IMG/VR virus record: IMGVR_UViG_3300021363_000005
Location: 1 to 64,000 of that record
DNA from: a virus
Strand: one strand, 5' to 3'
DNA length: 64,000 bases
The notes beneath the pieces were generated by a model, which made no database searches, was not told the DNA's origin, and saw nothing but the letters and a program-made list of their open reading frames with translations. This document shows positions 6,064 through 59,294 of the stretch, piece after piece; the first letter of the stretch is position 1, and each line of letters opens with the position of its first letter. Position numbers and translations under genes: made by a program.

Positions 6064-6075
6064 CCTCGGGAGTTA
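6061..6075. promoter_or_regulatory. P2 palindrome between virion genes
   Basis: TAACCTCGGGAGTTA. It contains the TAA stop of the PDQGLP gene and supplies the GGGAG Shine-Dalgarno for the GTG start at 6079. Confidence 0.55.
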
Positions 6076-24572: not shown

Positions 24573-27539
24573 TTACTCGACGTTGAGGAACCTTGCGTTC
24601 TCCGGCTTCGACAGGTCGAACTCCCAGACATACTCACGGGCGGGCGGATTTTTCAGTTCAGTGCCGGCACCAAGTGAGCGTTGATTTTTCGGTCGCGTGC
24701 AGAAGCCTGCTTTGAGCAGCACGCGCCTCATGTGATGGAAGTCTTGGTCACTCTTGCGGCACGCACTTTCTATCTGCGGCTCGCTTAGCAGCATTATTTT
24801 TTCGCTGGTGGCGATGCGCCCAACATAGGGCGGTTTCAAATCATACAGCTGATTTTTGATCTGTTCCTTGGTGTGCGGGTTCGTACCCTGCCTTGCGATG
24901 CCGTTCGTCACGATCATGTTGCTGATCCGCTCGTTGACGAAAGTGCTGATGCGGTTCAGGGCAACTTGTGGATCGTCGGCATCAACAGCTGCTTCGCTCA
25001 ACGTCATGCGTTGGTGACGGAATTGATCGAACAGGAACTTCTTCATTGACATGATGTCAAAGTCGAGCAGGTTGAGGTGCTTGGCTATGGTCGCGCCAAG
25101 ATAGATCGCGACGATGGTGGCCAGCCAGAAGCGCTCGCTCTCGACAGCATTAAGCTCCTTTTGAAACTCTTGTGTGCACAGCACGACCGCTTGATCGACG
25201 TTGCCGTAGTGCTGGTTGAGATAGTCGGCATAGACTGTTCCGGCGGTGCCATGGTTACTTTCCAGCAGGCGTTTGATGATCACTACTCGATCCAGTGTCA
25301 GGCCGAGTTTGGTGATGGCGTTGGACAGCTCGATCTCGACAACGCGCAACGCCTGCGCCGTCGTCTCTCGACTAGTCTTTTGCACCAGTGAGAAATTTCC
25401 TGCCGTGGTCAGCAGTAATTGGGAATAGCGCTGCGGCTTGCGGGTAGCGTTGCGGGTAAGCCGACGGTGATCCTTAGCCCCCGTGATGTTGAGCACCATC
25501 TCGCCGACCTTGCTGAAATTACTGCGTGCGTCGACCACGAACTCATCGGCATAGACCGGCAGGTTGTGTATCATCGCGATGTATTCTCTGGTATCGGCCG
25601 GAGTGCCGCTGCCCAGTACGGCGCGCATCGACGCCCACACGCTGCAGGCAATTTCCAGCGACGCTGTTTTTCCCCTGCCACTCGGTGCCCGGGCGTGGAC
25701 GATGCCACCGTCGACACCAGTAAACCGCATCAGGGGCGAGGCGAACGCCGTGGCGATCAACACTTCCATTTCGATGCAGCCCTTGTCGACGAAGAAGCTG
25801 GCACCCTTTTTCCACTCGCTGAGTTCACCGCACGACTGATACTCCGGTGCTGAGTTGCGGCCGCCATAGGCGAAGCCTTGAATGTTGCCGTCCTTCTCAA
25901 GCCAACCCATGCGACTGACCGACAGGCCATCACGCCGCTGTTGGACCAACGTGACCCATGCCGTCATGTACGGTTTCACCTGTTTGAAGTTCGAGTACAT
26001 CAGACCGTTGCCGAAGCAGTGCTCGGCAAAGCTCTGATCTGATTTAAGCGAGCCTAGCGGTACGAAAAATGTTTTCTTGTCATCGAAGCCCTGAGTACCG
26101 CGAGCGATGCAAAACTCTATTCTAACCGGAAGCTCAGCCGTGCCGTCGAGATAGGTCATGCTGTAGACCGGCGTCAGAAAGACCGGGTTGTTTTCGCCAT
26201 CGGTAATGAGATGGTCCGGCGTGTGGATGAAGCCGGGCGGCAGAAAGATCGGCTCGTCTGCCAGCGGCAGGAGGTGGGTCATTACCGGCCCCGCATGACC
26301 GTTCACGCTGCCGTTCATGTGGGTGCGGGTCGGCGTGCCGCTGCCCGACAGACCGCGCGTGGCGTAGTTGATCGGCGACTGACCCTGACCGTTGAACTGG
26401 CAGGTCCGGCAGATCGCCGCCGCTGCTGTGCTGGCGCGGGCGATGGTGGCGCATGCCGGCCAGCCCTGCGGCTGGGCTATGTCGAACTTGGCGTCGGTCT
26501 GCTCGGGGTCGTAGCGCCCATCGTCGCTCGACAGATCGTGGAAATAATCTCGACCGTCCTGCACGTAGTGGCAGAGCTTGGCGAGCTCGAACCACAGCGG
26601 CTCGAGGTCTCCACTGCCGCCACGTCGTTCGCTATCTGCAACAACTGGGCAAGCTCCTCGAAGCAGCTCGATGGAGGTGACGATACGAGAATGGTCAAGA
26701 CTGGCGAGCGCACGATTAGCCTCCGCTCCCCGAATTGGCGGGCGTGGTGGCAGGACGGCAGGGTCGATCACGGCGGCGCGCGGCGGGTGGCTAACTCCGG
26801 AGGTTAGCGGGAACCCGCTCAGCGCCGTCGTGACCTCGGCCAAGGTCATCGTCTCGCCAAGGCTTAAAACCTTACATTCCTTGGGGTTATTTGGGTCCTT
26901 GCGATTGAAGCTGCCCGGCAGGCGCAGCAGGGTGACCGAGTTGCGCGTGACGCCATGATCGAATTTCAGCCCGTGCTGGGTAGCCGCCTCGATCAGCCGG
27001 TCAGCCAGCGGCTGCCAGACGGCGCGCGTGATCGGCTGATCGAGCACGATGTAGGCGTGGATGCCGTGCCCGGTGCTGACGATGGGCCCCGGTCGGATCC
27101 CGATCTTGTCAAAAAACGGTAGCAGGGCGGCCAGCGCGGCCCCCTGAGAGGCGTAACCTTTGTCCTTAACGTCTAGGTCCAGCACCAACGAACGCAACCA
27201 GCGGGCATTTGTGGCCTTCCTGTCGCCCTTGCTGAGCTTGCGGTTGCCACGCCCGTCAGTCTGGCCGGTGTAACCCTGCCCGGAGAGACAGAAAAATACC
27301 TGCGCTTGAATGTGGTTTAGGAAGCCGGTGAAGTTCTGCAGCTGGCCGTACTCGTCCATGCCGCCGAAGGCGCGGCCGCCGCCCCGGTACGGCATCGCCA
27401 GATTGCCGCCGAAGGCGTGGATATTCACAAAACTGTCAGGTGGATTTGCGACACTCCACGGCACCACCCGGCCCAGAAACTGGGCCAGCGGGTCGGGAAT
27501 GTATGTGCCGTTGCCGAACGGCGTCTCGTTGCCCCCCAC
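24573..27539 (-). CDS. Primase-helicase (PrimPol + DUF927/AAA-like helicase)
   Basis: 988 residues, GTG start after GGAGGCACCTC. N-terminal primase-polymerase: catalytic acids in VLDLDVKDKG (D121, D123) and the STGHGIHAY motif (H158). Residues ~370-390 have a Cys pair (CATIARAST...CRTC). The C-terminal half is a DUF927-like motor with Walker A APSGRGKT near residue 615. Function: primer synthesis and replicative unwinding. A perfect P1 palindrome is embedded in the coding sequence at 25046 and P2 at 26792. Confidence 0.8.
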   Translation of the reverse strand: MGGNETPFGNGTYIPDPLAQFLGRVVPWSVANPPDSFVNIHAFGGNLAMPYRGGGRAFGGMDEYGQLQNFTGFLNHIQAQVFFCLSGQGYTGQTDGRGNRKLSKGDRKATNARWLRSLVLDLDVKDKGYASQGAALAALLPFFDKIGIRPGPIVSTGHGIHAYIVLDQPITRAVWQPLADRLIEAATQHGLKFDHGVTRNSVTLLRLPGSFNRKDPNNPKECKVLSLGETMTLAEVTTALSGFPLTSGVSHPPRAAVIDPAVLPPRPPIRGAEANRALASLDHSRIVTSIELLRGACPVVADSERRGGSGDLEPLWFELAKLCHYVQDGRDYFHDLSSDDGRYDPEQTDAKFDIAQPQGWPACATIARASTAAAAICRTCQFNGQGQSPINYATRGLSGSGTPTRTHMNGSVNGHAGPVMTHLLPLADEPIFLPPGFIHTPDHLITDGENNPVFLTPVYSMTYLDGTAELPVRIEFCIARGTQGFDDKKTFFVPLGSLKSDQSFAEHCFGNGLMYSNFKQVKPYMTAWVTLVQQRRDGLSVSRMGWLEKDGNIQGFAYGGRNSAPEYQSCGELSEWKKGASFFVDKGCIEMEVLIATAFASPLMRFTGVDGGIVHARAPSGRGKTASLEIACSVWASMRAVLGSGTPADTREYIAMIHNLPVYADEFVVDARSNFSKVGEMVLNITGAKDHRRLTRNATRKPQRYSQLLLTTAGNFSLVQKTSRETTAQALRVVEIELSNAITKLGLTLDRVVIIKRLLESNHGTAGTVYADYLNQHYGNVDQAVVLCTQEFQKELNAVESERFWLATIVAIYLGATIAKHLNLLDFDIMSMKKFLFDQFRHQRMTLSEAAVDADDPQVALNRISTFVNERISNMIVTNGIARQGTNPHTKEQIKNQLYDLKPPYVGRIATSEKIMLLSEPQIESACRKSDQDFHHMRRVLLKAGFCTRPKNQRSLGAGTELKNPPAREYVWEFDLSKPENARFLNVE

Positions 27540-29357: not shown

Positions 29358-30881
29358 CTAGTCCCACGATGCGTCTTCGAGCAAGTGAAGGAAGCTGTCC
29401 TGCTGAAGAAGTCGGTTGGTGAGCAGGTTATAGACCTGCTTCTCCATGGGCGTGCTCGACAGGTGCGCGAACAGTTGCTTGCGCGTCTGACCCACACGCC
29501 GGATGCGGGCATTGCCCTGATCGTATTGTTCGGCGCTGAGGGGTGGGCCGAACCATACGACGGTGTCAGCCGCCGTCAGCGTGATGCCGTGGCTGATGCA
29601 CTTGGGGAACGCCAGTAATGGTGATCGATCCTCGCTGTTCTGGAACATATTGAAAATTTTGTTGCGATCACGCGGATGAACCTGACCGTGGATCACGTGC
29701 GCGGTGCGGCCGCTCCGCAGCAGATGCTCATGGACTCCGTGCAGGGCATGGAGATAATTGATGAACACGATGACCTTGCCAGCTGCGGCGTCGATGATGT
29801 CGGTCAGCGTCTGCAGGCGTGCGTCGCCGTCGAGCTTGTAGATATTTCTTTTGCTGTCATAGAGCCAGCCGCACGAAACCTGCAGCAGCTTGCTCATGAG
29901 GACGCCGGCATTCATGGCGTTGATCTCGCCCGCCTTGATCAGCACCGTGGCATGCCTGCGCAGGCTGTCGTAGATGCGGCGCTGCTCCTTGCCCAGCTCG
30001 GTCATGATGGGCGGCGGCACGTAGGCCGGCGGCAGCTCGGTGATGTCGTCGAGGGTGTAGCGCACGCTCGGCTGGAAGTAGTTGAACGCCTTATCGATGG
30101 CCCCCGGCTTGTTCACCCATTTGAAGGCGGTGACCTTGAACATCAGCTCGTCGCGCAGGTGCGAGAAGTATTTCGGCACGCGCCATGGTGTGATGACCCT
30201 GATCTGGTTCCAGATGTCGGTCACGTAGTTGGGCATCGGGCTGCCGGTCATGCCCCAGACGATTGACATTTTGTCAGCGATCTTCTGGCAGACCTTGGTG
30301 CGGTTGGTCTTGTTGCGGTAGACGGCCAGCTCGTCGAGCAGCAGCACGTCGATGTCGCGGCGCTCCATGATCTCTTTCTGGATCACGGCGAGGCCGTCGT
30401 GGTTGACGATGTAGATGTCGATGCTGTCGTCGGCTAAAAGTTTCTTGCGCTTGTCGGCGGTGCCGTAGAGTACCGACCAGCGCAGGTGTGGTGTCGCTTT
30501 GAGAATTTCAGCGCCCCACGTGAAATGCATGGTGCTGATCGGGCAGACCACCAGCATCTTTTTGGCGATGCCGAGTTTTTTCAGGTAGTCAAAAGCCCAC
30601 AAGGCACATCGCGTCTTGCCGGTACCCATGCTGTTCAGCACGTAGCTCCGGGGGTTCTCCGTCATGCTCTCGACGGTGCGCACCTGAATGTCGAAGGGGC
30701 GTCCGCCGCACCAATCGTAGTTCAGTGCGACGGACGCGGGGGCATCGAAACCCATGGCACGGAGCGGTATGGTTATGCGCGGGGTATGCTCCAACGTCAG
30801 CTTGCCCGCTACGGGCACGACATCGGGGAACAGGGCCACGATCCCCGGTGTCGCCTCAACGTGCAAAGAGCCGATGCGCAT
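29358..30881 (-). CDS. SNF2-type DEAD/DEAH helicase
   Basis: 507 residues. Walker A NSMGTGKT (84-90), DELAVYRN motif II near 183, MTGSP motif III near 208, and a RecA-like second lobe with GQVHPRDRNKIFNMF and RIRRVGQTRKQ (motif VI). SF2/SNF2 translocase used in phage replication or recombination. Its start overlaps the end of the VRR nuclease gene by 26 nt. A P1-like sequence lies in the coding region at 30263. Confidence 0.85.
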   Translation of the reverse strand: MRIGSLHVEATPGIVALFPDVVPVAGKLTLEHTPRITIPLRAMGFDAPASVALNYDWCGGRPFDIQVRTVESMTENPRSYVLNSMGTGKTRCALWAFDYLKKLGIAKKMLVVCPISTMHFTWGAEILKATPHLRWSVLYGTADKRKKLLADDSIDIYIVNHDGLAVIQKEIMERRDIDVLLLDELAVYRNKTNRTKVCQKIADKMSIVWGMTGSPMPNYVTDIWNQIRVITPWRVPKYFSHLRDELMFKVTAFKWVNKPGAIDKAFNYFQPSVRYTLDDITELPPAYVPPPIMTELGKEQRRIYDSLRRHATVLIKAGEINAMNAGVLMSKLLQVSCGWLYDSKRNIYKLDGDARLQTLTDIIDAAAGKVIVFINYLHALHGVHEHLLRSGRTAHVIHGQVHPRDRNKIFNMFQNSEDRSPLLAFPKCISHGITLTAADTVVWFGPPLSAEQYDQGNARIRRVGQTRKQLFAHLSSTPMEKQVYNLLTNRLLQQDSFLHLLEDASWD

Positions 30882-31313: not shown

Positions 31314-31328
31314 TTGACATCATGTCAA
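31314..31328. promoter_or_regulatory. Perfect P1 palindrome
   Basis: TTGACATCATGTCAA, immediately upstream of the VRR nuclease Shine-Dalgarno and overlapping the stop of the 62-residue gene (31325-31327). Confidence 0.65.
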
Positions 31329-33350: not shown

Positions 33351-33635
33351 CTACATGTAGCCCATTTCATCGAGGATCATCTGCTTGGCGCATTCTAACA
33401 GCGCAAGAATTTCCGATCCCTTCACGCCGGCTGCGTTGTAGCCGACGTCGAAACAGTCTCTACCGTCGACATCTGTCGTCTTGAGGCGCAGTACGAGCAG
33501 CTTCTCGCACGGCGTGCGCCCCGCCTCGATGTCGCTGATGCAGTCGCGCAGGCACTCGACGGGTGTCCATAGCCGATTGTCACGCGTCTTGAGCGCCCGC
33601 ACGGCACCGAGGGACGTGACTTGGTCGTCAGTCAT
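33351..33635 (-). CDS. 94-residue unknown protein
   Basis: MTDDQVTSLGAVRALKTRDN...; start at 33635 by ATGA coupling with the upstream gene. RLWTPVECLRDCISDIEAG is followed by a beta strand (KLLVLRLKT) and a helical C-terminus. Resembles small phage proteins of unknown role. Confidence 0.65.
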   Translation of the reverse strand: MTDDQVTSLGAVRALKTRDNRLWTPVECLRDCISDIEAGRTPCEKLLVLRLKTTDVDGRDCFDVGYNAAGVKGSEILALLECAKQMILDEMGYM

Positions 33636-34030
33636 GCCGGTGTCCCCCTTCGTACGTTCTTCGACGCGTACATCACCGCCGTCGCTGCCTTCACGGCATG
33701 CATGCAGGCGGTCTCGCTTTCGCTGATGGCGATGGCGGCGTTGCGTGCCCCGTCGTCGATGGCGTGCCACATCGTCGACGCCGGCACATCTTCGGGCAGG
33801 CCGTCCTGCGGTAAAAACGGCTTAGGCCGGTCTCGCATTTTCTCGCAAGCGGTGATGAACGCCGCTGCCATCAGGTGCAGGTGGCCGACCTCGCTCAGAT
33901 GGTCGGGATTGAACCCGGCGCGCACGCGGCGCAGCGCCGTCTCACTCACTTCCACCATCAGGTGGACGGTACGCGATTGCACTGCCTTCTGATACTCGTT
34001 GGGTTCCTCGTACTGCAGCATCGTCGACAT
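33632..34030 (-). CDS. 132-residue helical protein
   Basis: MSTMLQYEEPNEYQKAVQSR...; strong RBS (GAGGAGGCTAAAA). Mostly helical with LSEVGHLHLMAAAFITACEKM and NAAIAISESETACMHAVKAATAVMYASKN. Function unknown. Confidence 0.65.
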   Translation of the reverse strand: MSTMLQYEEPNEYQKAVQSRTVHLMVEVSETALRRVRAGFNPDHLSEVGHLHLMAAAFITACEKMRDRPKPFLPQDGLPEDVPASTMWHAIDDGARNAAIAISESETACMHAVKAATAVMYASKNVRRGTPA

Positions 34031-38326: not shown

Positions 38327-38481
38327 TTGCTTACCTCTTGACGTTAGAGTTAACGCTTTACGCTACGCTACACGGTGCCGGTCGCGTGAGGGATGGGGTC
38401 ATCACCACCGGCGCTCGGGTTGCTCCCCATGGCAGCTCTTTGCACGGTAAACCGCCGTGCCAGTGCCCGAGGTCGTTTCGA

Positions 38482-40819: not shown

Positions 40820-40834
40820 TTGACATTGTGTCAG
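40820..40834. promoter_or_regulatory. P1 palindrome
   Basis: TTGACATTGTGTCAG. Overlaps the stop of the LuxR-type gene (40831-40833); the AAGAGGAG Shine-Dalgarno of the 77-residue gene follows. Confidence 0.6.
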
Positions 40835-41094
40835 ACGTCATGATCGTCGCCATCGTCGACGTAACCGCAGCGTGGGCACGGCAGGGCAATCGCTGCACGC
40901 AAGCAAACCGATACCGCTTGCGTGCGGCTGCGCACGCCCAGTTTGCGCAGGATTGCCTTGACGTGCACCTTGACGGTGTCGTCGGTACTTCCAAGGTCTT
41001 GAGCGATTTTCTTATTGGCATGGCCCAGCAGCATCCCCGCCAGAACGTCGGCCTCGCGACGCGTCAACGGGTAGTTCATGCTTTTCAGGGCCAT
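40831..41094 (-). CDS. LuxR/GerE-type HTH protein with Zn-like tail
   Basis: 87 residues: LTRREADVLAGMLLGHANKK then IAQDLGSTDDTVKVHVKAIL is a complete LuxR C-terminal HTH. A CPRCGYVDDGDD tail adds one Cys pair. No sensor domain, so it is a stand-alone DNA binder, and its 3' end carries a P1 site. A good candidate regulator. Confidence 0.8.
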   Translation of the reverse strand: MALKSMNYPLTRREADVLAGMLLGHANKKIAQDLGSTDDTVKVHVKAILRKLGVRSRTQAVSVCLRAAIALPCPRCGYVDDGDDHDV

Positions 41095-41495: not shown

Positions 41496-42938
41496 TCACT
41501 CCTGTTTGCTAGGTTTGACGACGTAGTCCTTACGCACCCAGCCGAGGCTGGGATCGCCCCGAATGTGCTCGGGGATCAGGCGACTATAGGCCATGCACTT
41601 GCCGCACAGCCGATAGCCCTCGTCGTAGTCGTAAGTCCATTCGTGCTCGTCGCGCCTACACTGCACATCGTGGTGCAGGTAATTACGCCAGTGCTGCATC
41701 ACTTCATGAGCGCGCCGCCGCGTAGCCGTGCGGAACTGCCGCTCGATGTACTGCACCGGCTTTTCTTTGGGCACCCGCAGGACAAGGCGATGGTAGTCCA
41801 TCTTCGCCCGCCGCCCGGTCAGCCCGGTGCGGATCGTCCCGGCGGGCTGCACGTGGTGGCTATCGATGGGCACTTCGTTCAGGCAGGCAAGAACGGTGAC
41901 GATCCAGCGCATCATGCCGGTGAACTCGGTGGTCTCTTGCACCATCAGGCTGGCGATGGTGTCGAACACCACCTTGTCTCCCGCCGATGCGACGAACGTC
42001 TCCATGACTTGCCGCATGCGCCCGGTGCCCAACACGCCATGGCGCATCAGGAACTCGGGCAGACGCAGCTCTTTCATCTGCGTCATCTTCTCGATCATCG
42101 TGCTGCGGCCGCCCGCCGAGTAGCCCCACAACGATGCCGGCCCCAACTGCTGCAGCATGTATATTTCATTCTCGGACATTTCCAGAATACGGGCGGCGGC
42201 ATCGGGTTGGTCGAGTGCCACGAACGGACGGCAGCCGGTGCCTTTGCCATCCTGTCCGGAAAACGCATACTCGCGCACGCTGAAGAAATAGCAGATCGTC
42301 GTGCCGATCAGGCCGTGCGCACCGAACGTCTCGCACACCATCTCGACCACCGCCTCGGTGTTGCTGAGACGGCGGATGATCAGGCCGAGGCGGTCGGCAA
42401 CCTCGTCCCAGTTGAACTTGCTGTTGTCCGCGTTGTGCAGCTCGCGCATGACCTCGACCTTGGTCTTAAGGTCGAACTCGATCCACGTGATGTCGTATGG
42501 CAAGGTGGCGTATTGCAGACGGGTCAGCAGCTTCTCGGGTTTGGTGGTCGTCGACACTTCCGTGGCGTAGCGCACGAAGTCGTTGTCGAGCACGAAGCGG
42601 TGGGCCTTCAGCATGTCCTGCCGGTACGACCGCAGGATCGGCTCGATCTCCTTGGCTTGATGCCGGTTGAGACTGAGCCGCTTGGGCAGGGTGTAGGTCT
42701 CGGCGACGAAGAGGTCGGCAAGGCTTGCTTCATCCTTGTCGCGCATGACCTTGTCGACCGCTTTGACGGCGGCCGGATGGCCCGCCATCAGGGCTTCGCT
42801 GAAGTCGACGGCCGACGAGCGGCCGCCGCTTGGTGATGGTATCGTACCCGCCGGCAGCTTGATGGTGCCAGACTTCAGGATCCGTCTGATTTCGGGATGC
42901 CGTCTTTGCGCGGCTTGCCGTCCTTTGTATTTCGCCAT
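41496..42938 (-). CDS. 480-residue phage protein, unknown function
   Basis: MAKYKGRQAAQRRHPEIRRI...; long helical body with LRLPEFLMRHGVLGTGRMRQVM and a C-terminal Cys cluster (CRRDEHEWTYDYDEGYRLCGKC) followed by HIRGDPSLGWVRKDYVV. The C-terminal pattern recurs in phage/prophage proteins of Rhizobiales-type genomes, without known function. RBS AACCCCCGGAGTTAAAGG comes from a P2 palindrome. Confidence 0.6.
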   Translation of the reverse strand: MAKYKGRQAAQRRHPEIRRILKSGTIKLPAGTIPSPSGGRSSAVDFSEALMAGHPAAVKAVDKVMRDKDEASLADLFVAETYTLPKRLSLNRHQAKEIEPILRSYRQDMLKAHRFVLDNDFVRYATEVSTTTKPEKLLTRLQYATLPYDITWIEFDLKTKVEVMRELHNADNSKFNWDEVADRLGLIIRRLSNTEAVVEMVCETFGAHGLIGTTICYFFSVREYAFSGQDGKGTGCRPFVALDQPDAAARILEMSENEIYMLQQLGPASLWGYSAGGRSTMIEKMTQMKELRLPEFLMRHGVLGTGRMRQVMETFVASAGDKVVFDTIASLMVQETTEFTGMMRWIVTVLACLNEVPIDSHHVQPAGTIRTGLTGRRAKMDYHRLVLRVPKEKPVQYIERQFRTATRRRAHEVMQHWRNYLHHDVQCRRDEHEWTYDYDEGYRLCGKCMAYSRLIPEHIRGDPSLGWVRKDYVVKPSKQE

Positions 42939-42941
42939 CCT

Positions 42942-43061
42942 TTAACTCCGGGGGTTGAAGTATTGCTCGTAGGTCACGCGGGGTTCCGGCCACAGCGCCA
43001 GAACTCCCATCAGCACACCGCCCAGCACGAACGCAGCGATCAACCAGTCGACGTATCTCAT
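42942..43061 (-). CDS. 39-residue membrane microprotein
   Basis: MRYVDWLIAAFVLGGVLMGV then LALWPEPRVTYEQYFNPRS: one transmembrane helix and a short tail. Start ATGA-coupled to the gene upstream; stop lies in a P2 palindrome. Confidence 0.6.
   Translation of the reverse strand: MRYVDWLIAAFVLGGVLMGVLALWPEPRVTYEQYFNPRS
42943..42957. promoter_or_regulatory. P2-like palindrome
   Basis: TAACTCCGGGGGTTG at the junction of the 39- and 480-residue genes; on the minus strand it contains the RBS of the latter. Confidence 0.5.
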
Positions 43062-43255
43062 CGCGGGTTGAGCATGCGGTGCAGATCGAACGCCAGACGC
43101 CCCTCCCTGACCAGCTCACGCAGCCGCTCGATGTCGTTCATGCTGCCGACGTAGCAGTAGTGATCGTGACATTCCTTCATGTTGCCGAGCACCGTCTCGC
43201 TATAGGTGAGAAGCAGATCGAAGTTCTTGAACTCCATAGGTTTCTCTTTGACCAT
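43058..43255 (-). CDS. 65-residue unknown protein
   Basis: MVKEKPMEFKNFDLLLTYSE...; RBS CAGGAGAGTATC. One Cys/His-containing patch (MKECHDHYCYVGSMND) then a helix. Unknown. Confidence 0.65.
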   Translation of the reverse strand: MVKEKPMEFKNFDLLLTYSETVLGNMKECHDHYCYVGSMNDIERLRELVREGRLAFDLHRMLNPR

Positions 43256-43267
43256 GATACTCTCCTG

Positions 43268-43282
43268 TTAACATAATGTCAA
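43268..43282. promoter_or_regulatory. P1 palindrome variant
   Basis: TTAACATAATGTCAA, one change, followed by the AGTGG extension also seen at 40059 and 53797. Upstream of the 65-residue gene. Confidence 0.55.
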
Positions 43283-43301
43283 GTGGATAACTTTAGTTGT
43301 C

Positions 43302-43332
43302 GGCGGCTGCGACCAAGGAAGCAGCAGCCGCC
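43302..43332. terminator. Hairpin between small genes
   Basis: 9-bp stem GGCGGCTGC / GCAGCCGCC with a 13-nt loop in the 72-nt gap. No clear U-run on either strand, so termination is possible but unproven. Confidence 0.35.
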
Positions 43333-43354
43333 GCTCTGGGATCTTTTAGGGGGG

Positions 43355-43459
43355 TTATCGCTTTTTCTTTCCGAGGAACTTAACGGTCAGCCATGCGACC
43401 AGCACCGGAAAGCACATCCCGATGATGATCATCAGGACTTGCAGCGCCTGCTCTATCAT
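43355..43459 (-). CDS. 34-residue membrane microprotein
   Basis: MIEQALQVLMIIIGMCFPVL then VAWLTVKFLGKKKR; single TM helix with a basic end. ATGA overlap with the upstream HTH gene supports translation. Confidence 0.55.
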   Translation of the reverse strand: MIEQALQVLMIIIGMCFPVLVAWLTVKFLGKKKR

Positions 43460-43746
43460 TTGTTTTTGCCGTTCTTGATCCACGCCCGGTGATAACCGAG
43501 CGCGCGCCCCGCTGCTTCCAACGTGGCGTTCTGGGGTCGTCGGGTCTTGCCCTCGAACCATGCCTTGACGCAGCCGGCGGTTGGTCCGCCTTCTTCTTGG
43601 ACTTCCTTGTAGTCTGCCTTCGTCAAGTTGCGCCTGCCGAAGTGGTCCTGCATGACGGTGCGGATTTCGTCGATGGCCGGATCCTTTGTCCGGAACATGT
43701 AAGCCGAGTAGAGCCGCATCGTTCCCTTGTTTGGTGGTCTCGCCAT
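43456..43746 (-). CDS. HTH regulator, Cro/CI-like
   Basis: 96 residues. LTKADYKEVQEEGGPTAGC then VKAWFEGKTRRPQNATLEAA is a helix-turn-helix with the VKxWxxG...RRP pattern of phage regulators. A candidate binder of P1 or P2. Confidence 0.6.
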   Translation of the reverse strand: MARPPNKGTMRLYSAYMFRTKDPAIDEIRTVMQDHFGRRNLTKADYKEVQEEGGPTAGCVKAWFEGKTRRPQNATLEAAGRALGYHRAWIKNGKNK

Positions 43747-43749
43747 GAA

Positions 43750-44115
43750 CTACTTCTCCGCCTTCGGCGGCTTCAGGGCATAGACCATGGCAACGCTGCC
43801 GGGATGATGATGGCGCTTGGTCATCAGCCCTTTCGTCACTGCCTGATTGAGGACGTGGCTGTATGACGTCGGCGACATGCCCATACTGACCACGATCTCG
43901 CGCGCTTGCTTTGCTTCTACCTCGGTGAGCTTGCGCTTCTTCATCTCCTTGACCAGCAGTTCCATGCTGTCCTGCGCGGTCAGGCGCAGCTTGCCGTTAG
44001 CCTTGGGCTCGACGTTGGGCACGTAGTTGTGCTGCACGTTGCGGGCTATCCCCGAGAGGCGTTTCAATGCCTCGCCGAGCAGCTTGTCTTCTACGAATAT
44101 TTCCAGCCTAAACAT
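43750..44115 (-). CDS. Winged-helix-like protein
   Basis: 121 residues; C-terminal half LTEVEAKQAREIVVSMGMSP then TSYSHVLNQAVTKGLM is reminiscent of a winged HTH for phage replication/repression. N-terminal part is alpha/beta. RBS CGGAGAAAATAG. Low-detail match. Confidence 0.5.
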   Translation of the reverse strand: MFRLEIFVEDKLLGEALKRLSGIARNVQHNYVPNVEPKANGKLRLTAQDSMELLVKEMKKRKLTEVEAKQAREIVVSMGMSPTSYSHVLNQAVTKGLMTKRHHHPGSVAMVYALKPPKAEK

Positions 44116-44158
44116 CTATTTTCTCCGTCGTTAAGTTGAAAGGTTTACGCACTCCTAC

Positions 44159-44368
44159 TCACCAGCCCGGGTCGTATGTCAGTAGCGGGCCGATCACGAT
44201 CTCGCTGTCCACCTTGTGGCAACGAGCAAAGAACTTCTCGCCGTGCTTCTCGAACATCTCGATCATCTTCTCCTCGATGGGTCCTTCGAAATGTATCTTG
44301 CGGTCACGGCTATAGATCAGCACCCGGCCACGATGCGGGTGCTGGCTGCGCTGGATCTTGCAGATCAT
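44159..44368 (-). CDS. 69-residue unknown protein
   Basis: MICKIQRSQHPHRGRVLIYS...; beta strands then a helix (EEKMIEMFEKHGEKFFARC). RBS GGAGGATTAA. Confidence 0.65.
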   Translation of the reverse strand: MICKIQRSQHPHRGRVLIYSRDRKIHFEGPIEEKMIEMFEKHGEKFFARCHKVDSEIVIGPLLTYDPGW

Positions 44369-44836
44369 TTAATCCTCCAGCTTTTTGGCATGCTCGAGGA
44401 TCGTCTCGGCAAACAGGATGGCGTTCTGTTTGGGCATGCCGACCCATGCAATGCTCTTGCCGAAGTCGATGACGACCGTCTTGCCGCTCGGATGGATGCC
44501 GATGCCGATGCGCAGCGCACCCTCGTCATTCGCACCCAACTTGCCTTCGGGAAACTCGCCGGTCGGTCCGAGCTTGGCTGACATGGTGTCAAGCCCGCAC
44601 TTGATCTTGAGCGAGCGCGGATCGTCCGGCCGTCCCGCCGTGGTGACGGCGACGCGCTGTTTGCAGACGCTACACGTCACAAGGAAATGTCCGCAGCGTT
44701 TGGCCGGATAGGGCAATAGGGTGGTGCAGGTCGGCGTCGCTCCCTCGGTCGCATCGACGTCGATACCCTCGGGATAGTCCGGATCGGGCGGGTTCTGCGG
44801 CTCGCGATTGCCATCAATCCACTCGACATTCAACAT
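44369..44836 (-). CDS. 155-residue unknown protein with Cys pair
   Basis: MLNVEWIDGNREPQNPPDPD...; CSVCKQRVAVTT suggests a zinc ribbon; C-terminal IGIGIHPSGKTVVIDFGKSI then a helix. Start at 44836, RBS GGAGGTTAAC from a P2 palindrome. A P1-like sequence (44578-44592) lies inside. Confidence 0.65.
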   Translation of the reverse strand: MLNVEWIDGNREPQNPPDPDYPEGIDVDATEGATPTCTTLLPYPAKRCGHFLVTCSVCKQRVAVTTAGRPDDPRSLKIKCGLDTMSAKLGPTGEFPEGKLGANDEGALRIGIGIHPSGKTVVIDFGKSIAWVGMPKQNAILFAETILEHAKKLED

Positions 44837-44837
44837 G

Positions 44838-45479
44838 TTAACCTCCGGAGTTAGAGAGAAGTTTCGTCTCGAATAGTTGTACGACCAGTCGGTTGGTCTC
44901 GTCGAACACCCACTGAAAGTTCTTGTAGGTTTCCTCATATCCCGCAATCGGTGGCAGACGGCGCAGGCCAGCCTCCCGACGCATTGCCTCCATGCCGGGC
45001 ACGATGTCCCATGCATGCGCGGTGTCGTAGCCCAACCACCACAGGCCGTGCGGGCAGTCGTCGTGGCACAGCTGCCATAGACGGATCCATTCCTGCCAGC
45101 CGATCAGCGTCGAGGTGTCGCCTTTGCGATCCTCGCGCAGATGACGCGCCGCGTCGCCCTGCGGGTAGAGCAGACTCTCGGTCACCCACGCCTCGCGATG
45201 CAGGCGGTAGCGGATCCACTCGTCAGCCTCCAGCGGATGGCAGTAAGCCGCATAGGTGAGCCCGCCGTGAACCTCGGCGTCGATGTCGTTGTAATCCTTG
45301 CCAGCCAGCGGATGGTTAGGTCCGAGGCCGACATAGCCGCACCACGAGCCGAGCGCGCCGCGTCGCATGGTGCAGCGCGCGCCGGTCTCCTCGTGCACCC
45401 AGATCGCCCGGTCGGGCTCGTCGTCCCATTCACCGTAAGGCCAGCCGGTGCGGTCGTTGATGTTGTCGAAGGTGTCCAT
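44838..45479 (-). CDS. 213-residue unknown protein ending NSGG
   Basis: MDTFDNINDRTGWPYGEWDD...; start chosen for GGAGGAGCT. Trp/Tyr-rich alpha/beta protein (CTMRRGALGSWCGYVGLGPN, HGGLTYAAYC). The final residues NSGG are encoded by a P2 palindrome. No family. Confidence 0.65.
   Translation of the reverse strand: MDTFDNINDRTGWPYGEWDDEPDRAIWVHEETGARCTMRRGALGSWCGYVGLGPNHPLAGKDYNDIDAEVHGGLTYAAYCHPLEADEWIRYRLHREAWVTESLLYPQGDAARHLREDRKGDTSTLIGWQEWIRLWQLCHDDCPHGLWWLGYDTAHAWDIVPGMEAMRREAGLRRLPPIAGYEETYKNFQWVFDETNRLVVQLFETKLLSNSGG
44839..44853. promoter_or_regulatory. P2 palindrome at gene junction
   Basis: TAACCTCCGGAGTTA. Encodes the last residues and stop of the 213-residue gene and the RBS of the next. 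Confidence 0.6.
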
Positions 45480-50035: not shown

Positions 50036-50785
50036 TTAACCTCCGGAGTTAGCAATCGGAGGCGTGATCTTGACCTTGGCGAGTTTCTCTTTCTTGTTGT
50101 CAGCCTTGGCCTGTTTGGCCTTATCTTTGGCCTCGGCCTTCTGCTTCTTGGTGCCGCCGAGTTCCTTGACCATTTTCTCGAGGATGTCGCAGCACTTGTA
50201 GATCTCGGGGTAGTCGTAGCCTTCGTTGAGTTTGAGGATGCGCTCGCGCTCTGCCCAGAACTTCTCGGCAAGGTCTTTCTTCTTAACCTTGGTCGAGTGG
50301 TCGGCCATGGTGCCGTCGATGTCCTTGTCGGCAAGGGCATGCTTGGGCTTGTTGTTCTGGGCACGGGCAAAGCCGAGCAGCAGCTCCCAGATGCGGCCTG
50401 ACTTGACGGTGCCGTTCGAGCGCAGGTGCTTCATGCGCTCGACGGCGCGATGCAGCACGGCAGGTCCGTCGTAGTTGGGATTACGGCCGAGGATGATGAA
50501 ATGCTTGATGTCGGAGGCACGCTGCTTGAATTGCTGGGTTTCCCTGATGTCGTTGCCGCCGACGTCTAAAAGCTCCTCGCCGGCACCCTCGATGATCTCG
50601 GACCATGCCCGTTTGTTGTCGTCCTCGTCGAACAGGCCCTCCTTGGCTTTGCGGGCGATCAGCTCGGCGGCGCGCAGGCGTGCCGTCTTGCCTTTGCCCT
50701 CGGAGCGGCCGATCTCGCGCAGTTCAGCAAACGCTGCCGCTTTGGCAGCGTCGATGTTGGACGCAGTTGGTGTATTGTCGGTCAT
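50036..50785 (-). CDS. 249-residue Lys-rich protein ending NSGG
   Basis: MTDNTPTASNIDAAKAAAFA...; helical body with a Lys/Ala-rich C-terminal tail (KKQKAEAKDKAKQAKADNKK), i.e. a basic nucleic-acid-type tail. RBS CAGGAGAGCTGA. The last residues are encoded by a P2 palindrome. Function unknown. Confidence 0.65.
   Translation of the reverse strand: MTDNTPTASNIDAAKAAAFAELREIGRSEGKGKTARLRAAELIARKAKEGLFDEDDNKRAWSEIIEGAGEELLDVGGNDIRETQQFKQRASDIKHFIILGRNPNYDGPAVLHRAVERMKHLRSNGTVKSGRIWELLLGFARAQNNKPKHALADKDIDGTMADHSTKVKKKDLAEKFWAERERILKLNEGYDYPEIYKCCDILEKMVKELGGTKKQKAEAKDKAKQAKADNKKEKLAKVKITPPIANSGG
50037..50051. promoter_or_regulatory. P2 palindrome at a gene end
   Basis: TAACCTCCGGAGTTA in the NSGG-stop codons of the 249-residue protein. 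Confidence 0.5.
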
Positions 50786-50910
50786 TCAGCTCTCCTGTTT
50801 ACTTGACATGATGTCAGATGGAGTGGTGCAAAGTCCATGGCGTCAAAAGCAATACACGGCACATCGACGTGCGCCACTACGGGGGAGTGGGAGCGCACGT
50901 CGATGGCCAT
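50782..50910 (-). CDS. 42-residue small gene with embedded hairpin
   Basis: MAIDVRSHSPVVAHVDVPCI then AFDAMDFAPLHLTSCQVNRR. Excellent SD (AAAGGAGGTGATGCCA) and ATGA coupling to the 249-residue gene. The coding sequence holds a 13-bp perfect inverted repeat (50862-50905) and a P1 palindrome (50803). Confidence 0.6.
   Translation of the reverse strand: MAIDVRSHSPVVAHVDVPCIAFDAMDFAPLHLTSCQVNRRAE
50803..50817. promoter_or_regulatory. P1 palindrome inside a small gene
   Basis: TTGACATGATGTCAG, one change, in codons for TSCQV. Confidence 0.55.
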
Positions 50911-51966: not shown

Positions 51967-52068
51967 TCATTTGTTACGCACGAAGCGCAGCACGGCGACC
52001 GCGACGCAGCAGACCAGCACGAAGATCAGGAACTGCCTGACCTCGGGACTGGCCAGCAACTCGGCCAT
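51967..52068 (-). CDS. 33-residue membrane microprotein
   Basis: MAELLASPEVRQFLIFVLVC then CVAVAVLRFVRNK; TGATG overlap with the gene upstream. One TM helix. Confidence 0.55.
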   Translation of the reverse strand: MAELLASPEVRQFLIFVLVCCVAVAVLRFVRNK

Positions 52069-52322
52069 CAATGCACCCTATCGGCATCGTCGGGAAACAT
52101 CCGACCATGCATCTGCTGCTCGACCAGCAGCAGACCCTGATCGCTGTCGATCAACTTGTAACCCCGGTTGGTGACGAACAGGCGCGCCGTCTCGGCGAAC
52201 ATCCACGAGCCGGCAAGCAGCATGAAGTGGCCCGATGGTGATTGCGCCCAGACGCAGGTACGGTCGCCGTGCGGTGCCAAGAACGCACTGGGAAAAGCTG
52301 GGAAGGGAATGACCTTTGACAT
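52068..52322 (-). CDS. 84-residue unknown protein
   Basis: MSKVIPFPAFPSAFLAPHGD...; start ATG in a P1 site, RBS AAGGAG 8 nt upstream. Beta-rich (CVWAQSPSGHFMLLAGSWMF) with a C-terminal helix. Confidence 0.6.
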   Translation of the reverse strand: MSKVIPFPAFPSAFLAPHGDRTCVWAQSPSGHFMLLAGSWMFAETARLFVTNRGYKLIDSDQGLLLVEQQMHGRMFPDDADRVH

Positions 52323-52330
52323 GATGTCAA
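52316..52330. promoter_or_regulatory. Perfect P1 palindrome over a start codon
   Basis: TTGACATGATGTCAA. Contains the ATG of the 84-residue gene and the stop (52327-52329) of the gene before it. Confidence 0.65.
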
Positions 52331-53108: not shown

Positions 53109-53123
53109 TTGACACGATGTCAA
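53109..53123. promoter_or_regulatory. P1 of upstream P1-P2 composite
   Basis: TTGACACGATGTCAA, one change; 4 bp from P2 at 53128. Confidence 0.65.
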
Positions 53124-53127
53124 ATCA

Positions 53128-53142
53128 TAACTCCGGGGGTTA
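53128..53142. promoter_or_regulatory. P2 of upstream P1-P2 composite
   Basis: TAACTCCGGGGGTTA, followed 2 nt later by a P1 half-site (ATGTCAAG, 53145-53152) with the AGTGG extension. Confidence 0.6.
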
Positions 53143-53161
53143 ATGATGTCAAGTGGAAAAC

Positions 53162-53186
53162 GTACATTAGAATGTTTCTAATGTAC
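53162..53186. repeat. Inverted repeat with 3-nt loop
   Basis: GTACATTAGAA-TGT-TTCTAATGTAC: 11-bp stem. Confidence 0.7.
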
Positions 53187-53264
53187 ATTCGTGTTGTGCG
53201 GCAAGCTCGATTGCCCCTGACCGGCACGATTTACACGGCACATGCGGTCGGCAAATAGTTTTCA

Positions 53265-53670
53265 TTTGATGATAAGCGAGCGGCCAAGTGATGAGCAGCT
53301 CATGTTAAATAGAAAAATCGCTTATCATGAACCCTTTAATATCAACGGGTTAGGGGATGATAAGGATGATAAGGAGGGTTTTGGTGCACATAGCCCCAAC
53401 TATTCTTCAACGGGGAGTTTAAGTGACTACTATTAGTTACTTAAACTCCCCGTGAGATCACATGTCGGCTGTATACGTCGTTTATCCTCCTTATCTTCCT
53501 TATCATTACATTGGTAAGTTCCGGAGGAACTTCCCATTAACCCAAGCTATCCCGTAAGTGCCGGATAATATGAGACTATTAGACACAATCATATATCGGA
53601 ACACACAGTTTTCCTTATCATGATGATAAGGAGGATGATAAGGATACAATGGAAAGTTTGGCTTATCTGC
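53265..53670. repeat. Cluster of GATAAG boxes
   Basis: About 11 GATAAG or CTTATC words in both orientations, including tandem GATGATAAGGATGATAAGG (53355-53375) and CCTTATCATGATGATAAGG (53612-53630). Resembles binding sites for an initiator; TTATC is the first half of a DnaA box but the remainder (CACA) is absent. Confidence 0.55.
53411..53452. repeat. 14-bp inverted repeat
   Basis: CGGGGAGTTTAAGT / ACTTAAACTCCCCG with a 14-nt loop. Cruciform-forming potential in the middle of the origin-like region. Confidence 0.65.
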
Positions 53671-53687
53671 CGCCCTTGCTGGCCCTA

Positions 53688-53791
53688 ACCATGTCAAGTA
53701 GAAACTTACTATTAAACAAATTCCTACTTACCATGTCAAGTAGAAACTTACTATTAAACAAATTCCTACTTACCATGTCAAGTAGAAACTT
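53688..53791. repeat. 42-bp direct repeats (iterons)
   Basis: Two complete units of 42 bp and a partial third. Each begins ACCATGTCAAGTAGAAACTT, i.e. contains a P1 half-site (ATGTCAAG), and then an AT-rich stretch. The third copy runs directly into the P1-P2 composite at 53797. Confidence 0.7.
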
Positions 53792-53796
53792 TCCAC

Positions 53797-53811
53797 TTGA
53801 CATTGTGTTAA
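53797..53811. promoter_or_regulatory. P1 of downstream P1-P2 composite
   Basis: TTGACATTGTGTTAA with CAC/GTG outer arms; 4 bp from P2. Confidence 0.55.
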
Positions 53812-53815
53812 GTGG

Positions 53816-53830
53816 TAACTCCCGGAGTTA
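53816..53830. promoter_or_regulatory. P2 of downstream P1-P2 composite
   Basis: TAACTCCCGGAGTTA, 4 bp after P1, the same spacing as at 53109/53128. Confidence 0.6.
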
Positions 53831-53914
53831 ACATCGCGCCGCGCAGCCCGCGCCTGCCGTGCCCTTGACGCGCATTACACGGCACATGTGCCGCGCGGCG
53901 CGGACCCCGGACGT

Positions 53915-53946
53915 GCGAAAACCCGCGACCCTTGCGGGTCGCGGGT
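53915..53946 (-). terminator. Terminator of the 246-residue gene
   Basis: Minus strand: 11-bp GC stem ACCCGCGACCC / GGGTCGCGGGT with 4-nt loop followed by TTTTCG. Separates this gene from the origin-like region. Confidence 0.8.
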
Positions 53947-53959
53947 TCGCGGTAAGTTT

Positions 53960-54700
53960 TCAGTTCACGCTCTGAGACTGGGCGCTGCCTTCGAGCTGCG
54001 CCTTAAGCTGCGCCATCTCGTCGGCCGCAGACAGGCCGGTCTCGCCGTCGGCGACTTCGCACGCCTTGACGAACGCCTCGCACGCCTGAACAACGGCGAG
54101 CATTGCGATACGCTGGCGCGGCTTCGCCTTGATGGCTTCGAGCGCCACCTTGTCCGACTTGGCGACGCGTTCGTCCGACGTTGTCGAAAGCCACCGCTTG
54201 GCTAGCGTCAAGGCAGGGTTCTCGTCTGCCTTGGAAACCGGATTGAGGATGGCGTCAAGCTCGACGTCGTTCGGCTTCGTGGTCGGATGCTTGTCCATCA
54301 CCTTGCGGACCTTGGCCCCGCGAACGGTATAGGACTGCTTGTCCAACTTGGTCGCCTTCTCGACGATGTCGCTCATATCGTAGGCAGCGAACCGCCCCGC
54401 GTCTGCGAACGCACCGAAAGCGGATGCCCAAGTCTTAACCGAATTTTCGGAAAGCTCCTTGCGCATGCTGCCTTCGCCCGACCGGAAAGGCGTATTGAAC
54501 GCGTCGAAAATCTTCGCCGTATCAATGTCGCCGTTCACCTTGTTCTGCCGATGGGCAACGCCAACGGCGAACATGAAAGCGGCGAACCGCTCGAATACGG
54601 ACAGGTCCGTAAGATTGCCCGTGCCGATCTCGGCCGCTGCCTTGATGATGGCCGCCTCTGATTTCAGGCTTTTGGCGTCGTACTTGCTGATATCCAACAT
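53960..54700 (-). CDS. Origin-adjacent 246-residue protein, unknown
   Basis: MLDISKYDAKSLKSEAAIIK...; start after GGAGACGAAA. Helical and Lys/Ala-rich, with RLAFA-type stretches, KPRQRIAMLAVVQACEAFVK and an acidic/Gln C-terminus. It lies alone between the origin-like repeats and the P1-rich control region, with its own terminator, so an initiator, partition or regulatory role is plausible. No domain recognised. Confidence 0.6.
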   Translation of the reverse strand: MLDISKYDAKSLKSEAAIIKAAAEIGTGNLTDLSVFERFAAFMFAVGVAHRQNKVNGDIDTAKIFDAFNTPFRSGEGSMRKELSENSVKTWASAFGAFADAGRFAAYDMSDIVEKATKLDKQSYTVRGAKVRKVMDKHPTTKPNDVELDAILNPVSKADENPALTLAKRWLSTTSDERVAKSDKVALEAIKAKPRQRIAMLAVVQACEAFVKACEVADGETGLSAADEMAQLKAQLEGSAQSQSVN

Positions 54701-54718
54701 TTTCGTCTCCACATGTTA

Positions 54719-54733
54719 TTGACTTGATGTCAA
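54719..54733. promoter_or_regulatory. P1 variant before the 246-residue gene
   Basis: TTGACTTGATGTCAA, one change; 19 nt from the leftward start codon. Confidence 0.55.
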
Positions 54734-54777
54734 TGGGAGCGGCGCTCCCTACCCTACGTCAAGTGTAATCAAAAGTA

Positions 54778-54792
54778 TTGACTTGATGTCAA
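54778..54792. promoter_or_regulatory. P1 variant, second copy
   Basis: TTGACTTGATGTCAA, identical to the copy 59 nt away; its minus-strand half reads as a -35 box (TTGACA). Confidence 0.55.
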
Positions 54793-54901
54793 CGGCGAGC
54801 CGCCACCCCGGAGATGGACACGGCCGGGGTGGGGTAGTGTCGGCTTAGGGGCTTCACAAATCTGGGTACGTGTTTTTTCGGTTCTTTCCTCTTGACATCG
54901 C

Positions 54902-54916
54902 TAACCGCCGGGGTTA
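54902..54916. promoter_or_regulatory. P2 beside a P1 half-site
   Basis: TAACCGCCGGGGTTA, with TTGACAT at 54892-54898 directly before it. Confidence 0.5.
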
Positions 54917-54944
54917 AGCTTCTCCCACCCGCGAAAAAGCGCCA

Positions 54945-54959
54945 TTGACATTATGTCAA
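54945..54959. promoter_or_regulatory. Perfect P1 palindrome, candidate promoter
   Basis: TTGACATTATGTCAA. Its TTGACA is followed after 17 nt by TATCTG, a weak -10, in the direction of the gene at 55003. The palindrome could thus be both -35 and operator. Confidence 0.5.
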
Positions 54960-55002: not shown

Positions 55003-55482
55003 ATGGCATACGATACCCAGCTCAAGATGGATCCCACGCCGATGCCGATAAAGCCTGCGGTGCTGCTCCTGCTGCATCGTCGTCGCAAGATGGCGTTCGT
55101 CAGCTACACCTCGAACGCACGCGGTCGCGCGGCTGTCTTGGCTTCCGCTATCCGCCACCGCGACACCGTCGAGCGCGCCCATCTGCGCGACCTGCCCGAG
55201 GGCGACATCAGGGACTTCGCCTTGCTGGCGACCAGCGTCGGCTTGGAGCCGCGCAAGGCCAACAAGACGGTCGAACGCCTGCAGGCCAAAATGGTGCGCG
55301 ACGGTTACAAGCTGTTCGGCAGCCCCCGCTCTGCCATCCCGCTGGTGACGCTCAACGGCAAGCGCATGTCGTTGGTCGAGGCGATGCTGGAAGCCAAGTG
55401 CAAGACCAACTATCAGACCTGCTATCGCCGGGTGCAGCGCGGCTGGCCAGTCAAGGCTGCTCTCGACTTGGAGCCGAGATAG
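55003..55482 (+). CDS. 159-residue unknown protein
   Basis: MAYDTQLKMDPTPMPIKPAV...; first gene of the rightward block, downstream of a P1 site. C-terminal TNYQTCYRRVQRGWPVKAAL is a short helical motif seen at the end of HNH/HTH-type phage proteins. Middle is helical and basic. Function unknown. Confidence 0.6.
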   Translation: MAYDTQLKMDPTPMPIKPAVLLLLHRRRKMAFVSYTSNARGRAAVLASAIRHRDTVERAHLRDLPEGDIRDFALLATSVGLEPRKANKTVERLQAKMVRDGYKLFGSPRSAIPLVTLNGKRMSLVEAMLEAKCKTNYQTCYRRVQRGWPVKAALDLEPR

Positions 55483-58790: not shown

Positions 58791-59294
58791 TCATGTCTCA
58801 GTAACTCCCGGGGTTAGGATCGCCTCACCTTCGATGGTCTTGGGCTCGCTCGACTCCTTGTCAAACGATAACTTATGACCGCCCAGCATGATGTTGATCT
58901 GCACCCGCCCGCTGCCGTCGTCCTTGGTCAATGGACCCTCACCAAGATGACCTAGCTTGGCAAGGAATTGCAGGGCTTGTACGCGCGCGGCACCCGGTAT
59001 GTCCGCGTCGCGAATGATGTCGACGGTGTCCAACAGCAGCTCCTCGATCATCGACGCTGCCTTGACCGACACGCGCTCGCGCAAATTCTGCTTGGTGCTG
59101 GCCGACCAGATCTGTGCTTCCTCGAGCAGATGGGTCTGGAAGATCGGGTGTTCCTTGATCCGGTCGTAGGCGTCGCTGTCGATGCCGGCGCGTTGCAGCA
59201 GGATTTCGAGCGGCTGGATCTCGCGCGCGATCTCGCGGGCGATACGGGCCATGTCGAGTTCGGTGAGCTCGCGTTGACCGACCATCAGGGTCAT
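58791..59294 (-). CDS. Terminase small subunit-like
   Basis: 167 residues, RBS AAGGAGCGCCAG. Helical N-terminal region with LTELDMARIAREIAREIQPL, then KEHPIFQTHLLEEAQIWSAS and SMIEELLLDTVDIIRD. This DNA-binding, ring-forming architecture and its place beside terL indicate the small subunit. Its last codons (LTPGVTET) encode a P2 palindrome. Confidence 0.65.
   Translation of the reverse strand: MTLMVGQRELTELDMARIAREIAREIQPLEILLQRAGIDSDAYDRIKEHPIFQTHLLEEAQIWSASTKQNLRERVSVKAASMIEELLLDTVDIIRDADIPGAARVQALQFLAKLGHLGEGPLTKDDGSGRVQINIMLGGHKLSFDKESSEPKTIEGEAILTPGVTET

Follow-up and report, generated by a model that had tools for sequence, protein, structure and literature searches.

The region at 53.1-55.0 kb of this virus, which we refer to as the hub, carries two short palindromes, P1 (TTGACANNNTGTCAA) and P2 (TAACYYCNGRRGTTA), that stand side by side at what was described as a fixed distance. 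This raises the question of whether the pair is one composite site for cooperatively bound proteins or whether P1 and P2 are separate signals that happen to meet there. The window analysed here comprises bases 1-64000 of a 65,710-base IMG/VR virus record, and coordinates refer to it unless a relative is named.

Direct reading confirmed the order P1, 4 bp, P2, with centres 19 bp apart, at both places. The first composite reads TTGACACGATGTCAA-ATCA-TAACTCCGGGGGTTA (P1 at 53109-53123 and P2 at 53128-53142), and the second reads TTGACATTGTGTTAA-GTGG-TAACTCCCGGAGTTA (P1 at 53797-53811, with one mismatch, and P2 at 53816-53830). The GATAAG repeats and a set of 42-bp repeats are bracketed by the two composites, as had been noted for the GATAAG region, and the last 42-bp copy runs into the second composite. 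For 30 P1 and 14 P2 sites spread over 65.7 kb, chance predicts 0.013 pairs at any one exact gap and 0.5 at gaps of up to 40 bp; the genome contains two pairs at a gap of 4 bp and four altogether with a gap of up to 40 bp.

The same 4-bp gap recurs in other genomes, twice in G005 (28501 and 37111) and once each in G014 (30401) and L005 (6708). The G014 composite (30401-30434) is syntenic with the second composite of the window, lies next to the same conserved flank (DNA matching 53836-53927) and keeps the gap although its letters have changed; the G005 pairs are at loci other than those of the window composites. The P1/P2 gaps in G002 are 13 and 15 bp, the site at 64854 (record coordinates) has a gap of 6 bp in the window's virus and of 4 bp in L005, and close pairs across the genomes also show gaps of 2, 6, 12, 13, 15 and 27-29 bp. 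The spacing whose lack of conservation in relatives was to refute the idea recurs in G014, G005 and L005 and not in G002, and "fixed" is too strong a word for it: the 4-bp gap is preferred, not obligatory. In G017, two palindromes spelled TACCTT/AAGGTA and GTACTGC/GCAGTAC adjoin and even overlap by 3 bp (6666, 8471 and 61404), and its close palindrome pairs number eight against 0.3 expected.

The preliminary description overlooked that P1 and P2 are dispersed over the whole genome, with the majority of copies outside the composites. Allowing up to one mismatch, the 65.7-kb genome has 30 P1 and 14 P2 sites, of which 26 and 10, respectively, are solitary, so that the P1+P2 pair is not the basic unit. 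Both motifs occur in the window far more often than in dinucleotide shuffles and exceed every shuffle (P1 with up to two mismatches, 30 versus 1.5 expected; P2 with up to three mismatches, 33 strand-matches versus 2.9 expected). Intergenic DNA makes up about one tenth of the genome and holds 20 of the 30 P1 sites (2.9 expected) and eight of the 14 P2 sites (1.3 expected). Many P1 copies shortly precede the ribosome-binding site of the gene that follows, as typified by a solitary copy before a leftward gene (31314-31328), and others lie within genes; one overlaps the start codon of an 84-aa gene (52316-52330; gene at 52068-52322, minus strand). A -10 box downstream of P1 was found in one case against 1.1 expected, no more often than by chance, and we rejected P1 as a general -35 element; the absence of a -10 box at most P1 copies is a hallmark of non-promoter sites. 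P2 is spaced more evenly than random in the window genome, G000 (p 0.012), G002 (p <0.001) and G005 (p 0.002), as is the palindrome of phage RHph_TM27A (TM27A; p 0.011), and most P1-type sets fail this test, which rules out even spacing as a general rule.

Relatives were gathered from IMG/VR by searches with the portal protein, a hub protein (A) and a second protein (B), both described below, and about 20 long genomes were taken. The closest named phage by portal protein is Rhizobium phage RHph_TM27A (57%), with HMO-2011-type phages at 23-26% identity; direct DNA similarity of the window to named phages was not found, and a viral scan with the DNA polymerase as query gave no match. An unbiased count of exact inverted repeats, run on the window and the relatives with no motif supplied, picked out P1 in the window; most complete relatives yielded dispersed palindromes of their own. 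These are spelled TTAACANNNTGTTAA in G005, CTTATATNNATATAAG in G009, CGAACTTTAAAGTTCG in G008, TTACCCNNNGGGTAA in G015 and G019, TTACGCCCNGGGCGTAA and TCACGCCCNGGGCGTGA in G020 and G018, TTACCGNNNCGGTAA in G028 and G029, and GTTACCTNNNNAGGTAAC in TM27A, with others elsewhere. A table of genome against palindrome spelling is near-diagonal, and most relatives have 10-41 primary sites per genome. The signal was weak in G021, G026, G030 and G031; G004 and G012, both short partial contigs, contain P2 but yielded no palindrome in this count, and the outgroups HMO-2011, phiM6, Slicky01 and CRP-13 (50 kb each) showed no dispersed palindrome. Since the relatives have their own diverged palindromes and the outgroups none, P1 and P2 belong to a class of sites found across the clade. 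They also appear to represent two distinct binding specificities, in line with the two proteins or dimers first proposed for the composites: P2 is the same in G005 while its partner there is TTAACANNNTGTTAA, and G012 has P2 without P1.

The positions of P2 are conserved as well. P2 was found within 40 bp at 19 of 36 testable orthologous places in five relatives (1.3 expected), and many of the orthologous copies lie within 4 bp although their Y/R letters have changed. The copy in the 3' end of a 167-aa gene adjoining the terminase gene (58802-58816) is conserved in all five testable relatives, again with changed Y/R letters, and that at the end of the capsid gene (64854, record coordinates) in four of five. 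A solitary P2 in the primase/DUF927 gene (26792-26806) has a counterpart at nearly the same place in both G014 and G005, and another at a gene boundary (6061-6075) is conserved in three of four testable relatives. The conservation of P2 across orthologous places points to selection on the DNA and not on the protein alone.

A third composite, a half P1 followed by P2, had been proposed at 54892-54916. The element exists and reads TTGACA-TCGC-TAACCGCCGGGGTTA, with P2 at 54902-54916, and its supposed half P1 is better read as a -35 hexamer. Its counterpart in G014 is TTGACA-17-TATATT with P2 within the spacer at a different offset, and a similar element in G005 (38369-38400) still has TTGACA where half of that genome's P1 would be TTAACA. 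On these grounds we rejected the half-site reading and regard the element as a putative promoter with a P2 operator. In the window it forms a rightward promoter-like match, TTGACA-17-TAAGCT, on the plus strand (54892-54920), and P2 lies in its spacer; P2 is present at the matching place in G014, G002 and G005. Facing the other way, at the first composite, is a sigma70-like leftward match, TTGACA-17-TATGAT (11 of 12 consensus positions; 53124-53152, minus strand), also with P2 in its spacer. P1 follows immediately after the -10 box of the leftward element, where it forms the P1 of the first composite, and at the rightward element a P1 stands 28 bp further on (54945-54959). Judged by their consensus matches, both hub promoters may be active.

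The rightward element and its P1 precede a 159-aa basic protein (pI 10.4; 55003-55482, plus strand), the first gene of the rightward operon, which is 64-66% identical in relatives. Its C-terminus weakly resembles that of HNH endonucleases. This protein, C, was rejected as the reader of P2 as it occurs in genomes without P2.

Close relatives differ in the repeats at the centre of the hub, which are of a GATAAGG type in the window (53266-53646) and of a GTAGGTGT type in G014 (30000-30330), with conserved hub DNA on their flanks. This turnover suggests a replication origin whose iterons change along with their reader. The 42-bp tandem repeats (53685-53788, minus strand) contain TTTCTAC-TTGACA-17-TTTAAT and could therefore represent leftward promoters in tandem instead of iterons. 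A palindrome at 53162-53189 (GTACATTAGAA...TTCTAATGTAC) is kept in the G014 hub (30360-30387), where it lies on the opposite side of the composite, and partly in G008; a terminator and a third site are both possible readings of it.

Two proteins are candidate readers of the palindromes. Protein B (249 aa; 50036-50785, minus strand) belongs to a family found in 21 genomes of the clade and in none of four outgroups, and a six-frame search located it at the contig end of G017 too. Its homologue in RHph_TM27A is a 242-aa gene (18372-19100). In the window, P1 lies directly upstream of gene B (50803-50817) and P2 at its 3' end (50037-50051). The genome's own palindrome occurs within 150 bp upstream of B in 11 of 21 genomes, against a background of 15% (p=8e-5; corrected for 37 tests, about 0.003), and of the 37 protein families that occur in six genomes or more, B ranks first in this respect. 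Sister B proteins go with the same or a near-identical palindrome (G000, G014 and G002; G018 and G020; G028 and G029). Core homologues of hub protein A (246 aa; 53960-54700, minus strand) are confined to G002, G005 and G014, the other fully sequenced genomes of the TAACYYC type; G008 and G009 have more distant homologues. In all six genomes inspected, a P1-type palindrome of the genome's own set is directly upstream of A, and the window has two such copies (54719-54733 and 54778-54792). The AlphaFold2 models of both proteins are all-helical and fairly confident (mean pLDDT 79.5 for A and 84.8 for B). Neither protein matched Pfam, and fold searches of the two models gave no significant PDB match, so DNA binding by A and B stays putative. 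As candidate regulators, B is the likely reader of P1 and A the likely reader of P2.

Co-variation was not decisive in naming the reader. In a Mantel scan, B followed the palindrome moderately (r 0.27 with alignment distance and 0.43 with tree distance), whereas the primase/DUF927 protein followed it best of the families tested (r 0.71-0.76) and exonuclease 30 followed it too; replication genes thus track the palindrome better than B does, and shared phylogeny confounds all such correlations. The primase/DUF927 protein has 988 aa (24573-27539, minus strand), and its homologue in RHph_TM27A (42248-45331) is annotated as a putative integrase, probably wrongly. Other candidates were set aside. 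The 87-aa product of 40831-41094 (minus strand) strongly matches the LuxR/GerE helix-turn-helix domain (E 2e-17), but of 23 records searched the window genome alone has it, and for that reason it cannot explain a clade-wide trait. Two small proteins that look helix-turn-helix-like by eye (43456-43719 and 43750-44115) have no Pfam match to such a domain and occur only in G000, G002, G008 and G014. Elsewhere in the window, a gene at 33632-34030 (minus strand) weakly matches the hairpin domain found in the anti-CBASS/anti-Thoeris proteins Acb2/Tad1, at a level (E 0.004) that falls below the cut-off.

The life style of these phages bears on what the sites might be for. Of 14 records searched, 12 had no integrase, and the two that had one were G021 and the outgroup HMO-2011; the window genome has none, and the tyrosine recombinase domain PF00589 had no match in the window genome. 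ParB (PF02195) had no match in 14 records, with control genomes positive. As most members are without an integrase and none has ParB, a repressor that maintains lysogeny is not demanded. The search for a T7-type RNA polymerase (PF00940) gave no match, but the control genomes were silent too; P1 and P2 sites are symmetric, where promoters of such a polymerase would be asymmetric and oriented. Portal homologues were found in two Bradyrhizobium assemblies, L197 (NZ_PSRT01000042.1) and L195 (NZ_JADPKS010000067.1), on contigs of 60.6 and 61.0 kb. Both contigs have the length of a whole phage, and the 60.6-kb one also encodes B; they fit extrachromosomal carriage or a contaminating phage, and phage-plasmids are possible.

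For the sites as a whole we favour a stoperator-like operator network of two specificities that has two phage proteins as its readers, a view that, on sequence evidence, we hold to be about evenly poised between right and wrong. P1 and P2 would each be recognised by a different phage-encoded, probably dimeric DNA-binding regulator, and the roughly 30 P1 and 14 P2 copies would act as operators at a few promoters and presumably as transcription roadblocks or silencers elsewhere. Both layers would meet at a divergent control hub (53.1-55.0 kb), where P2 in the -35/-10 spacers of the leftward and rightward promoters and P1 just downstream of each could allow one regulator to block open-complex formation and the other to block promoter escape. 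A spacing of 4 bp would leave room for the two regulators next to each other. Protein B would read P1 and hub protein A would read P2, each repressing its own gene.

There is a real possibility, somewhat short of an even chance, that the composites are a by-product of both motifs crowding gene boundaries and promoters, with the equal gap having no cooperative meaning. That the majority of sites stand alone, that many other gaps occur and that the position of P2 at the hub is apparently set by promoter geometry all fit this reading; yet outside the window genome a gap of 4 bp accounts for four of 11 pairs with gaps of up to 40 bp, where about 0.3 would be expected under uniform gaps, and the gap persists at the syntenic G014 position despite the changed letters. 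In another reading, the palindromes would be loading or priming sites for the primase/DUF927 helicase or another replication protein, placed every 1-3 kb and symmetric to serve both strands, as might be suggested by the primase/DUF927 protein tracking the spelling best of the families tested, by a Cas4-like exonuclease that tracks it while the capsid does not, and by the even spacing of P2 and of the TM27A palindrome. We consider this unlikely in view of the strong enrichment of sites at gene boundaries, of the genome's own palindrome standing upstream of B more often than of any other family and of the uneven spacing of P1-type sites in most genomes; the primase correlation may merely mirror the shared ancestry of the early region.

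Even spacing of P2 and the copies inside coding sequence would also suit an architectural protein, nucleoid-like or for packaging, that organises or protects the genome and for which regulation is secondary; so would the genome-wide coverage, late genes included, and the small, all-helical A and B without a known fold. The concentration of sites at gene starts and stops, P2 within the hub promoter spacers and the placing of sites at the candidates' own genes make such a role quite improbable. Most doubtful of all is a role at the RNA level, where the palindromes would terminate transcripts as hairpins or mark intergenic processing sites. Complementary flanks lengthen the stem in three of 30 P1 copies in G000 and in four of 15 copies in G009 (7-9 extra pairs); one example of such a stem is gaccgcTTGACATAATGTCAAgcggtc after the capsid gene. 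Most copies, however, have no extended stem, numerous copies lie within coding sequence, and within a genome the arms keep their primary sequence and not only their pairing; RNA hairpins are disfavoured as the main role. The G009 copies concerned (3347, 3983, 18905 and 58006) have GC-rich complementary flanks of 7-9 bp that vary by copy, as if they were also hairpin terminators.

A stoperator-like network has partial parallels among known systems. Coliphage P1 lives as a plasmid and has c1 operators dispersed over its genome; these are 17 bp long and asymmetric, and no c1-like protein was found here. Centromeres of the parS/ParB kind depend on a ParB-family protein, which was not found in 14 records (PF02195). 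The stoperators of cluster A mycobacteriophages (L5, Bxb1) occur in up to 30 dispersed copies, most of them not associated with promoters (PMC6550527, PMC9283540), and each related genome has a similar, non-identical consensus (PMC6550527). The 30 P1 and 14 P2 dispersed here resemble them in number, as do the 10-41 primary sites of most relatives, in their preference for short intergenic gaps with -10 boxes at chance level at P1, and in a consensus that diverges among related phages. A bound repressor that halts transcription elongation, as in the L5-type system, would be the counterpart of the roadblocks proposed here. The two systems differ in that L5-type sites are 13 bp, asymmetric and mostly oriented one way relative to transcription, whereas P1 and P2 are palindromes; that there are two unrelated specificities per genome here and most members are without an integrase; and that the candidates A and B have no recognised DNA-binding domain. 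In Bacillus prophage SPbeta, the 15-bp element SPBRE at scattered promoters was found in silico and is bound by the phage master repressor MrpR (PMC10516654). It shares with P1 and P2 that a repeated element scattered over one phage genome was first found in silico, but it occupies about ten promoter sites against tens of sites here, many of them inside genes, and MrpR has a tyrosine-recombinase fold that is absent from the all-helical A and B models without a PDB match. Motifs typically located between ORFs in Nostoc phages A-1 and N-1 were proposed as stoperators from sequence alone; they are asymmetric, and the passage that describes them mentions neither diversification across a clade nor a second specificity (PMC4916379).

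Only a few phage groups, namely cluster A mycobacteriophages and SPbeta, have established dispersed repressor sites. Here the trait recurs in podoviruses of a broad clade, relatives of a Rhizobium phage, which together show more than 10 palindrome spellings and, in several members, two specificities per genome. More tentatively, and with considerable doubt, this clade of uncultivated podoviruses might possess a genome-wide control layer built on two independent, fast-diversifying sets of palindromes, in which the A and B families would be a new kind of sequence-specific DNA-binding protein and operator spelling and protein would change together, setting groups of immunity or exclusion. The finding bears on the need for dispersed operators in phages that are mostly without an integrase, and one clade member, RHph_TM27A, is available on a Rhizobium host. 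As a natural series, the clade would allow one to follow the joint change of specificity in a DNA-binding protein and its dozens of sites, with candidate proteins of no known fold.
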